Source: Betaproteobacteria bacterium
Lineage (GTDB): Bacteria > Pseudomonadota > Gammaproteobacteria > Burkholderiales > UBA6910
NCBI GenBank assembly: GCA_016183615.1
Contig: JACPEG010000030.1
Coordinates: 1 to 64,000, forward strand
Direction: 5' to 3'
DNA: 64,000 nucleotides
The number at the start of each line of letters is the position of its first letter. Positions within the stretch are counted from its first letter, which is position 1. The notes beneath the pieces are model-generated. The model searched no databases and had not been told where the DNA came from. It saw nothing but the letters and a program-made list of their open reading frames with translations. This document shows, piece after piece, positions 35,323-59,162 of the stretch. The position numbers were made by a program, and so were the translations under genes.

Positions 35323-35420
35323 GGTGCGCAGGGCGCACCCTACGAAAGCGCCGAGCGTGCCGCGTACAGCGTGTCCCAGGCACCGAATGGCCGAATGGGC
35401 AGGGTGCGTCCCACGCACCG
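35323..35420. repeat. Palindromic repeat family A (inverted pair)
   Basis: GGTGCGCAGGGCGCACCCTACG at 35323 and AGGGTGCGTCCCACGCACCG at 35401 form a pair of facing palindromes about 57 bases apart, in the gap between the cNMP-binding gene and the DUF3567 gene. Same family as the repeats around the RAYT gene at 53064. Confidence 0.85.
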
Positions 35421-42120: not shown

Positions 42121-42263
42121 CTACGCGCAGGGTGCGGCCCACGCACCGCCTGAACGGGTAGGGTGCGTCCCACGCACCGATCGGAAGCGCCGTAAAAGCC
42201 GGTGCGCAGGGCGCACCCTACGAGAAGGCGGTGGTGACGCGTAGGGTGCGTCCCACGCACCGC
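42121..42263. repeat. Palindromic repeat family A cluster (four copies)
   Basis: Four palindrome units in 140 bases, in alternating orientation: GGGTGCGGCCCACGCACCG, GTAGGGTGCGTCCCACGCACCG, GGTGCGCAGGGCGCACCCTA and GTAGGGTGCGTCCCACGCACCG. It fills the divergent gap between the hemolysin III and YdcH-like genes. Confidence 0.9.
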
Positions 42264-44013: not shown

Positions 44014-44115
44014 CGTAGGGTGCGTCCCACGCACCATTCAAATCACGGATTCGGTGCGCGAGGCGCACCGTACGCGCGGGCGGATGGCGATGGGTAGGGT
44101 GCGTCCCACGCACCG
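44014..44115. repeat. Palindromic repeat family A cluster (three copies)
   Basis: GTAGGGTGCGTCCCACGCACC at 44015, GGTGCGCGAGGCGCACCGTACG at 44053 (opposite orientation) and GTAGGGTGCGTCCCACGCACCG at 44094. It lies between the CBS gene and the SRPBCC gene. Confidence 0.9.
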
Positions 44116-51654: not shown

Positions 51655-52818
51655 GTGCCTCCACTGCCGCCGATTCCAATGCCCAGGGTTCCCATCATGC
51701 TTGGCCCGGGCGATTTCAATCCCGAAGAGGTCCTGTCCTGGATGCGACAAGGCAGGGGCCTGCCCCACGCCTACTTCGAGCAGATGGACCGGTCGCGCCG
51801 CCTCCAGGGGGCGATGTTCGACGCCCTGGGGCTGGGGCCGGTGGAGACTCCCTCGCGGGTCGTGCTCTCGAAGCCATGCGTCACGCTGAAGGCCTACGGC
51901 GACAACGCCGCAGGGCCTGCGGCGCTCCTCGTGCCCGCGCCCATCAAGCGCGCCTACATCTGGGACCTGGCGCCGGAGCTGAGCGCGGTGCGCCGCTGCC
52001 TCGACGGCGGGCTGCGCGTCTATCTCGCCCAGTGGGAGGCGCCGGGGGAGGAGCAGCAGCAGCTCGGGCTCGACGACTACTGCGAGCGCCTGCCGCTTGC
52101 CTGCGTGGAGGCGATCGAGCGCGAAACCGGCGAGCGGAGCGTGTTCGTGCTGGCCCATTCCCTGGGTGGGACCCTTGCCACGCTGTTCGCCGCCCTGCAT
52201 CCGGAGCGGGTGCGCGGGCTGGCGCTGTTCGCTTCGCCCATCCGCTTCGGCCCCGGCATCGGCATCTTCGGCCAGCTCGTGAGCGCCGTCCACGGCACGC
52301 GGGAATTCCTGGACCGGGGCGGGAACTTCCCGGGCTCGTTTCTCAGCATGGTGAGCTACCTCGCCGCGCCCGAGACCTTCGGCTGGGAGCGCCAGGCCGA
52401 CTGGATTGCGAGCCTCGCCGACCCCGGGGCGATGCGCTCCCATCTGCTGGTGCAGCGCTGGACGCTCGACGAGATGCCGCTGGCGCGCCGCTTCTGCGAG
52501 GAGGTGGTGGAGTGGCTGCTCCGCGAGAACCGCTTCATGGGCAACCGGCTCGAGATCGGCGGGGCGAAGGCGCGGCCCGAGGACGTGCAGGCGCCGCTGT
52601 TCTGCGTCGCCGACCGGCGCTGCAAGGTGGTGCCGCCGGAAGCGGTGGTGCCGTTCTACGAACGCGCCGCCGGAGACAAGCGGCTGCTGTGGTACGGCGG
52701 GGACACGGGCGTCGCGCTCCAGCACGTGGGCATGCTGGTGGGGGAAAGCGCCCACCGCAGCCTGTGGCCGGACGTGCTGCAATGGGTCGGCCGAGTGGCC
52801 GGGGAGAAAGGCGGGTAG
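51655..52818 (+). CDS. PhaC-like alpha/beta hydrolase with Ser nucleophile
   Basis: A 387-residue protein related to class III polyhydroxyalkanoate synthases (LVPAPIKRAYIWDLAPE, LRVYLAQWEAPG, LDDYCERLPLACVEAIERET). True PhaC uses a Cys in GxCxGG; here the elbow reads LAHSLGGTLATLFAALHPER with a Ser near residue 169, as in ordinary hydrolases. The Asp (CVADRRCKVVPPEA) and His (ALQHVGMLVG) positions remain. It may be an esterase, a depolymerase or an acyltransferase. Start GTG 51655 has AGGA upstream; ATG 51679 and 51697 are alternatives. A family A repeat cluster follows. Confidence 0.75.
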   Translation: MPPLPPIPMPRVPIMLGPGDFNPEEVLSWMRQGRGLPHAYFEQMDRSRRLQGAMFDALGLGPVETPSRVVLSKPCVTLKAYGDNAAGPAALLVPAPIKRAYIWDLAPELSAVRRCLDGGLRVYLAQWEAPGEEQQQLGLDDYCERLPLACVEAIERETGERSVFVLAHSLGGTLATLFAALHPERVRGLALFASPIRFGPGIGIFGQLVSAVHGTREFLDRGGNFPGSFLSMVSYLAAPETFGWERQADWIASLADPGAMRSHLLVQRWTLDEMPLARRFCEEVVEWLLRENRFMGNRLEIGGAKARPEDVQAPLFCVADRRCKVVPPEAVVPFYERAAGDKRLLWYGGDTGVALQHVGMLVGESAHRSLWPDVLQWVGRVAGEKGG

Positions 52819-52883: not shown

Positions 52884-53054
52884 CGGTGCGCAGGGCGCAC
52901 CCTACGAGGGGTGGTGGAGATGCGTAGGGTGCGTCCCATGCACCGGTCGGAAGCACCGAAAAATGCTGGTGCGCAGGGCGCACCCTACGAGGGGTGGTGG
53001 AGATGCGTAGGGTGCGTCCCACGCACCGGTCCGCTGGCTGCGTCCCACGCATCG
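52884..53054. repeat. Family A repeats downstream of the RAYT gene (tandem 83-bp period)
   Basis: A ~65-base unit (GGTGCGCAGGGCGCACCCTA, a spacer with GGGGTGGTGGAGATGC, then GTAGGGTGCGTCCCACGCACC) occurs twice with an exact 83-base period, at 52885 and 52968; the first copy has CATG for CACG. A half unit follows at 53039. It abuts the 3' end of the RAYT gene. Confidence 0.92.
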
Positions 53055-53063
53055 CCCCGGTTG

Positions 53064-53615
53064 TCATTCCCCGAACGTCTTGCCGTCCTGGTTTTCCGCT
53101 CCGCCGCCGCCCCAATCAATCGGATAGACGCCGCGCACGACCAACCGGTGAAACGTGGAATGGGGCCAGTCGGCGACCCTTGCGACGTGGCCGTGCTTCA
53201 CCGGGTTCCAGTGCAGGTAATCCATGCAGCGCTGCAAATCCGCTTCGTCGCGCACCATGTGTTCCCAGTAGCGGCGCTGCCACACGCCCGATTCGCGGCG
53301 GGCATGCCGGGAATCGCTCAGATGGGTGCCGTTGGTCAGGCGTTCGCCCATGGCCTTGCTCACGCGCCGCTTGATGACGGCCCAGCGCGAGGCGTAATCC
53401 GAATCGCCGTCGGGCAGGGTCCAGATGCAATGCAGATGATCCGGGAGGAGCACCCAGGCGTCGATCCGGAACGGGTGGGATTGGCGGGTGCCTTCGATCG
53501 CGTCGCGAAGCGCATGGCGGACGGGTTCGTCAATGAGAATCGGCGCCCGGCCGTGGGTCACCACGGTGAAGAAATAGGTACCGCCCGGGATGAAGGCGCG
53601 GCGATAGTTGGGCAA
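53064..53615 (-). CDS. REP-associated tyrosine transposase (RAYT)
   Basis: A 183-residue Y1 transposase-like protein (IS200/IS605-related, COG1943). YRRAFIPGGTYFFTVVTHGR opens the fold, LLPDHLHCIWTLPDGDSDY has the catalytic His-x-His, and YWEHMVRDEADLQRCMDYLH then WNPVKHG carries the tyrosine helix. RAYTs are single-copy, domesticated enzymes that cut and join REP palindromes. The gene is flanked on both sides by clusters of the same palindrome (family A). There is no second transposon gene and no intact IS boundary. Confidence 0.92.
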   Translation of the reverse strand: MPNYRRAFIPGGTYFFTVVTHGRAPILIDEPVRHALRDAIEGTRQSHPFRIDAWVLLPDHLHCIWTLPDGDSDYASRWAVIKRRVSKAMGERLTNGTHLSDSRHARRESGVWQRRYWEHMVRDEADLQRCMDYLHWNPVKHGHVARVADWPHSTFHRLVVRGVYPIDWGGGGAENQDGKTFGE

Positions 53616-53681
53616 ATGCGGCGTCCGGAAAAGATCTGCGGGGCGGTCGATTCACCTATCGTACATCGGACACGGCGGAAA

Positions 53682-53829
53682 TGGTGCGTGGGACGCACCC
53701 TACCCACCGTTCCGCGTTCGTGCGTAGTGCGTAGGGTGCGTCCCACGCACCAAACGGAAGCGCCAGAAAATCCGGCGCGCAGGGCGCACCCTGCGAGGGG
53801 AATCGCGTAGGGTGCGTCCCACGCACCGG
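53682..53829. repeat. Family A repeats upstream of the RAYT gene (four copies)
   Basis: GGTGCGTGGGACGCACCCTACC, GTAGGGTGCGTCCCACGCACC, GGCGCGCAGGGCGCACCCTGCG and GTAGGGTGCGTCCCACGCACCG in alternating orientation over 148 bases, just upstream of the RAYT start. Together with 52884-53054 this encloses the gene. Confidence 0.92.
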
Positions 53830-53856: not shown

Positions 53857-54219
53857 CTACTCCCAGCTCACCGTCGCCGACAGAATGTAGCCCGCGCCAT
53901 AGACCGTCTTGATGAGGCGCGGGTCCTGGGGGTCGGCCTCGATCTTGCGCCGCAGGCGCGAGATGCACACATCGATGGTGCGGTCGGTGGGAGAGGTGTT
54001 GCGGAAATTGAGCAGGTAGTCGCGTGACAGCACCCGGTTGGGTGAGCGCAGCAGCGCCAGCAGGATCTGCGCCTCGGAGGCGCTGAGCGCCGCCTGGCGC
54101 CCGTCGGGGGCGGTGAGCTGATAGCCCTGGGCGTCGAAGCGCCATCCGGAGAAGCAGGCGACGCGGCGCGCCGCCGCCGTTTCCGCTGACGCCGCGCCCG
54201 GGCTGAAGGCGGAGGTGTC
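53857..54219 (-). pseudogene. C-terminal (DNA-binding) remnant of an OmpR/PhoB response regulator
   Basis: A minus-strand frame with no start codon codes for a complete winged-helix effector domain: FSGWRFDAQGYQLTAPDGRQ, ALSASEAQILLALLRSPNRV, DRTIDVCISRLRRKIEADP and TVYGAGYILSATVSWE with a stop at 53857. The receiver domain (about 120 residues) is missing: the frame meets a TAG in the sequence of the oppositely oriented FixH-like fragment. I read this as a truncated gene joined to foreign sequence near 54216. Confidence 0.75.
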
Positions 54220-54620: not shown

Positions 54621-54648
54621 GGCGCGGGTGCGTCCCACGCACCGATTC
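54621..54648. repeat. Palindromic repeat family A (single copy)
   Basis: CGGGTGCGTCCCACGCACCG directly after the family B cluster and 17 bases before the glnS stop codon; the two families sit side by side here. Confidence 0.8.
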
Positions 54649-59138: not shown

Positions 59139-59162
59139 CGGTGCGCGGGGCGCACCCGACCC
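59139..59162. repeat. Palindromic repeat family A (degenerate)
   Basis: CCGGTGCGCGGGGCGCACCCGAC, a degenerate unit seven bases after the SPOR gene and directly before family B copies. Confidence 0.65.

Follow-up and report, generated by a model that had tools for sequence, protein, structure and literature searches.

A single-copy RAYT gene and its probable cognate REP/BIME family: a REPtron of the E. coli type

The stretch of DNA analysed here (64 kb, hereafter the window) very probably harbors a REPtron, i.e., a single-copy RAYT gene together with a REP/BIME family recognised by the RAYT. A sequence-only reading of the window had proposed a RAYT/REP system around a transposase-like gene, and the gene family, the position of the repeats, the architecture of related loci, and the presence/absence pattern across genomes agree with this proposal. 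The features of the window are the following:

35323–35419, no strand assigned: intergenic inverted Z/Y REP pair (copies at 35323 and 35399; pattern search)
42127–42261, no strand assigned: intergenic BIME of four REPs (42127, 42158, 42201, 42241; pattern search)
44015–44114, no strand assigned: intergenic BIME of three REPs (44015, 44053, 44094; pattern search)
52885–53027, no strand assigned: downstream BIME array, Z(−) 52885, Y(+) 52924, Z(−) 52968, Y(+) 53007, with an 83-nt period (pattern search)
53036–53059, plus strand: degenerate REP adjoining the RAYT stop codon (family D1, 79%)
53064–53615, minus strand: RAYT (TnpA-REP) gene, 183 aa, TTG start, intact frame (NF047646, Pfam Y1_Tnp, 4ER8 alignment)
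53683–53703, minus strand: Y-type REP 5' of the RAYT start, GTAG reading in the direction of the gene (exact copy)
53731–53827, no strand assigned: upstream BIME, Y(+) 53731, Z-like(−) 53774, Y(+) 53807 (pattern search)
54623–54643, plus strand: lone degenerate REP, GTAG foot lost (GGTGCGTGGGACGCACCCTAC-like search)
59140–59160, minus strand: lone degenerate REP, its GTAG foot likewise degenerate (GGTGCGTGGGACGCACCCTAC-like search)

The protein encoded at 53064–53615 on the minus strand scored 201 bits against the NCBIfam equivalog model NF047646, “REP-associated tyrosine transposase” (cut-off 80), and only 16.6 bits against the IS200 model (cut-off 55); it also matched Pfam Y1_Tnp and was aligned along its whole length with the E. 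coli TnpA-REP structure (PDB 4ER8, E = 1.5e-47). By this curated family and solved homologue, the transposase-like gene is a RAYT, in which the RAYT-specific signature accompanies an IS200/IS605-like HUH Y1 core. The published functional residues are conserved in the 4ER8 alignment: the HUH pair is kept as H60-L-H62, the catalytic tyrosine Y133 corresponds to Y115 of the E. coli enzyme (for its role, see PMC8266576), N137 to N119, and W112/Q113/R122 to W94/Q95/R104, which have been named in connection with GTAG recognition (PMC6006769). The gene is present once in the genome, showing no IS-like multiplication. An ordinary IS200-type TnpA, separate from the RAYTs, was also encountered (G000, C9:106788-107144). 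The neighbors of the RAYT gene are an alpha/beta hydrolase gene (51697–52818) and a partial OmpR-type regulator gene; the latter, a response-regulator fragment at 53857–54219 on the minus strand, comprises only the C-terminal DNA-binding domain (Trans_reg_C), with no in-frame receiver domain ahead of it. The notion of the RAYT as a typical phage or plasmid gene was rejected, since none of the phage records searched contained its relatives, and the plasmid collection yielded them in only 23 records, some of these being chromosome-sized.

Seventeen copies of the repeat lie in the window within three mismatches of GGTGCGTGGGACGCACCCTAC (100 shuffles gave none), and a degenerate Y/Z pattern raises the number to 19. 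The copies near the RAYT (52885–53007 and 53683–53807) enclose the gene on both sides, as had been described, and the further copies reported at 35323, 42121, 44014, 54621, and 59139 are placed correctly to within a few bases. Their location between genes holds as well, for predicted genes contain none of the 19. The description of a single repeat family proved incomplete: the family is real, but the window also holds a second one, family B (GTAG-tagged GTAGGAGCGAATTCATTCGCGA), in seven copies (13081, 54540, 54587, 59181, 59249, 61207, and 61295).

Two forms of the window repeat (family A) recur, Y (GTAG-GGTGCGT-CCC-ACGCACC) and Z (GTAG-GGTGCGC-CCT-GCGCACC), both predicted to fold as single-stranded DNA into a GTAG foot with a 7-bp stem and a 3-nt loop; none of 200 shuffles was equally stable. 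The genome-wide count of copies, which the sequence-only reading had suggested as a check, amounted to ~258 (133 + 125) by pattern searches of a 94% complete draft genome, with 2 (0 + 2) for the reversed-pattern control. In a 464-kb sample used for the placement statistics, consisting mostly of contigs known to carry copies, 32 pairs of opposite-facing neighbors were of the Y+Z type and a single pair was Y+Y, with a handful more having variant loops. None of the 81 sampled copies is inside a predicted gene at a coding fraction of 0.83, a value that is approximate because genes were called by a simple codon-usage script; likewise, 0/55 and 0/69 copies of families B and C (the latter described below) are intragenic. 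The repeats are thus GTAG REPs by their short 5'-GTAG palindrome, high copy number, and extragenic location.

The spacing within Y/Z pairs is mostly 33–44 nt, and the array periods are ~78–86 nt. Next to the RAYT, 52885–52948 and 52968–53031 are 98% identical over 64 nt and lie 83 nt apart. Hence, the reported 65-base unit with an 83-base period is real. It is the normal array unit here and not a peculiarity of the locus, since arrays of ~78–86 nt recur all over the genome, e.g., on C40 at 10/91/172/253 and on C5 at 41252/41331/41410. With this regular spacing and alternating orientation of the REPs, the repeat layout (inverted Y+Z pairs and ~80-bp arrays) is a BIME architecture.

Several lines of evidence bear on the question of whether the repeat is cognate to the RAYT. 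Y copies flank the minus-strand gene in inverted orientation, 53683(−) upstream and 53007(+) downstream, and inverted flanking REPs have been described as a constant layout for RAYTs (PMC2817692). Among the related RAYT loci with enough flank for comparison, 71 of 104 display an inward GTAG hairpin upstream and a matching reverse-facing one downstream, an arrangement found at none of the 192 control positions of those loci. That a transposase gene merely happens to sit among unrelated palindromes is scarcely credible against these figures; the abundance of the repeat in the genome is all that speaks for such a coincidence. Similarity of the proteins is correlated with similarity of the stems (Mantel r 0.32, 0/2000 permutations), a correlation that is inflated by the common descent of whole cassettes. 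The two nearest RAYT proteins (62% identity) are accompanied by the stem GGTGCGT; in one of the two cases, Y-like loops occur alongside Z-like ones.

The presence/absence of the repeat was followed with the pattern GTAGGGTGCG-N(3-20)-CGCACC in a genome collection containing only three same-family relatives. The RAYT-bearing source genome has 171 copies and the same-family genome G003, also with a RAYT, has 59; 6 were counted in G001, a congener of G003 lacking any RAYT match, and none in G002, where the RAYT matches are only partial. In a search of 60 relatives with the more specific pattern, no other genome exceeded 12 copies. Equal abundance in relatives lacking the RAYT, which the sequence-only reading had named as the outcome speaking against it, is contradicted by the counts for the source genome, G003, and G001. 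The G003 copies possess loops of their own, and the G003 RAYT is only 54% identical to that of the window and is not its sister on the tree. On the RAYT tree, the GGTGCG stem did not prove monophyletic and is scattered, with 6 changes. Such a stem, not confined to one clade, can recur or be shared, and together with the divergent G003 protein its scatter argues against a simple vertical lineage. Overall, it is supported that the window REPs are the cognate repeats of the window RAYT, because position, architecture in relatives, protein–stem specificity, and presence/absence across genomes agree.

The probable mechanism can be modelled on the E. coli enzyme, whose assays provide the basis for binding via GTAG, cutting by the tyrosine, and rejoining (PMC8266576). 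In the single-stranded state, Y and Z would each form a hairpin (7-bp stem, 3-nt loop) with a GTAG foot on its 5' side. Recognition of the foot and the hairpin by the HUH enzyme would be followed by cleavage close by via its tyrosine, and the liberated Y–spacer–Z unit could then join a different exposed site or be duplicated locally, which would account for the scattered Y/Z pairs and the intergenic ~80-nt arrays. Cutting and rejoining by the window RAYT itself are presumed from the E. coli analogy. The spacers within GTAG-outward units are alike across loci (z = 23.6 vs. shuffles), and those between units show a weaker cross-locus likeness (z = 7.9), with near-identity mainly inside one array; to regard the between-unit spacers as fully locus-specific would be too strong in view of this weak likeness. 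The pattern of spacer likeness may mean that the Y–spacer–Z unit disperses first and is then duplicated locally.

The RAYT may be active at present: its intact frame and the many identical copies are consistent with continuing amplification. Alternatively, the RAYT could be defunct and the repeats relics, the ~80-nt arrays growing only by replication slippage or recombination. Near-identity of between-unit spacers mainly within one array is what local duplication would give, and a decayed RAYT does occur elsewhere in the genome (C6:44534), but the window gene has an unbroken reading frame and retains every known functional residue, and many dispersed copies are identical over the 21 nt searched, which makes this alternative rather unlikely.

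The decayed RAYT (C6:44534-44629) retains the HUH and C-terminal parts in an 81-residue frame from which the tyrosine part has been deleted. It could be the former partner of family B, with nothing linking the two, and no family B copy was found beside the relic. Family B numbers 220 copies genome-wide, often in same-facing arrays ~60–85 nt apart; none were found in 20 relatives, and a search of the 94% complete draft with NF047646 and PF01797 revealed no RAYT for it. Since family B is abundant with no RAYT found, copies can apparently persist without one, which would suit a host keeping the repeats for its own use (transcript ends, mRNA stability, gyrase/IHF sites), the RAYT being a passive neighbor or only the historical source. 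Strict intergenic placement and stable predicted hairpins would also suit such a use, and binding of gyrase and IHF by REPs is known from other systems (background in PMC2817692). Nevertheless, the repeat family of the window is almost absent from relatives, RAYT and stem vary together, and gene avoidance is equally expected for a selfish repeat under purifying selection, so that upkeep by the host appears unlikely as compared with the proposed REPtron.

A second intact RAYT (C29:86954-87388) is separated from the window RAYT on the tree, falling into the other main clade (support 97/98), and has a REP of its own, family C (GTAG-GGCGGAA...TTCCGCC), with 104 copies. About 59 of the 104 are found around the gene, within 50.5–107.8 kb of C29 (50484–107821, ~57 kb), a contig whose 50–117 kb stretch is devoid of families A and B. 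With the gene's own flanks excluded, 15 family C clusters occur in ~56 kb, up to ~37 kb either side of the gene, vs. ~32 clusters in the remaining 3.68 Mb (a hand count from a listing, allowing for a few unlisted places). The cluster density near this RAYT is thus ~30 times that elsewhere (P ~1e-17 under even placement). The G003 RAYT shows such crowding on a smaller scale, with 5 repeat clusters at distances of up to 8 kb and no cluster in the 60 kb used as control; local enrichment around the window RAYT was not found (0.036 vs. 0.053 clusters per kb).

Tentatively, the C29 and G003 loci might indicate that RAYTs spread repeats first around their own gene and later genome-wide, the window family being one without such a gradient. 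The C29 stretch has genes of the glycosyltransferase, Wzt, sulfotransferase, and RTX types, and its content is largely of the surface-polysaccharide and RTX type. Regions of this kind are often exchanged between strains, and therefore joint arrival of the gene and its repeats, i.e., an imported island, is as good an explanation of the C29 cluster as local spread. No clear break in composition was seen across the region, and a 15-kb part of it had no syntenic match at the DNA level in three relatives. A description of a repeat-density gradient around a RAYT was not found in the literature searched; still, PMC3116915 includes a figure on how close REPIN clusters lie to RAYT genes, so the gradient may not be new.

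The RAYT/REP pair of the window is a typical E. coli-type REPtron, a clean example of a known system. It shares with E. coli TnpA-REP (4ER8) and BIME-2 (PMC8266576, PMC2817692) the protein family, the residues, the 5' GTAG REPs, intergenic tandem arrays in which REP variants alternate and face opposite ways, and one gene serving many repeats, whereas its REPs have a perfect 7-bp stem and a 3-nt loop and those of E. coli are longer with a required bulge. Inverted flanking REPs, a short stem, copy number tracking the cognate RAYT, and several RAYT/REP pairs per genome are also known from the Stenotrophomonas/Pseudomonas RAYT/REP and REPIN systems (PMC2817692, PMC3116915, PMC3686654). The GTAG superfamily and its REPtrons (PMC3733652) exhibit GTAG-tagged short stem-loops, the REPtron layout, and multi-family genomes, with no difference in kind, and the window stem sequence was not found in the main text of that paper. 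The very short perfect hairpin and strict two-variant pairing make the pair useful for recognition assays. The interest lies mainly in comparing the three GTAG families of one genome, of which one is dispersed with an intact RAYT, one is concentrated round its RAYT, and one is abundant without a RAYT; this makes the genome well suited to studying how such families originate and by what they are maintained.

Most doublets in SBW25 contain a single REP type (PMC3116915), whereas the inverted pairs of the window genome nearly always combine two types. A G003 locus (C1:1500997-1501829) carries a RAYT with two hairpin types on the GGTGCG base, a long one (GTTGAGC...GAAACGCACC) and a short one (GCnnnnGCGCACC); two-variant pairing may therefore be common in the group. 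RAYT-family matches are unusually numerous in two genomes of the comparison, G067 (19) and G068 (13), and the hairpins flanking them differ.
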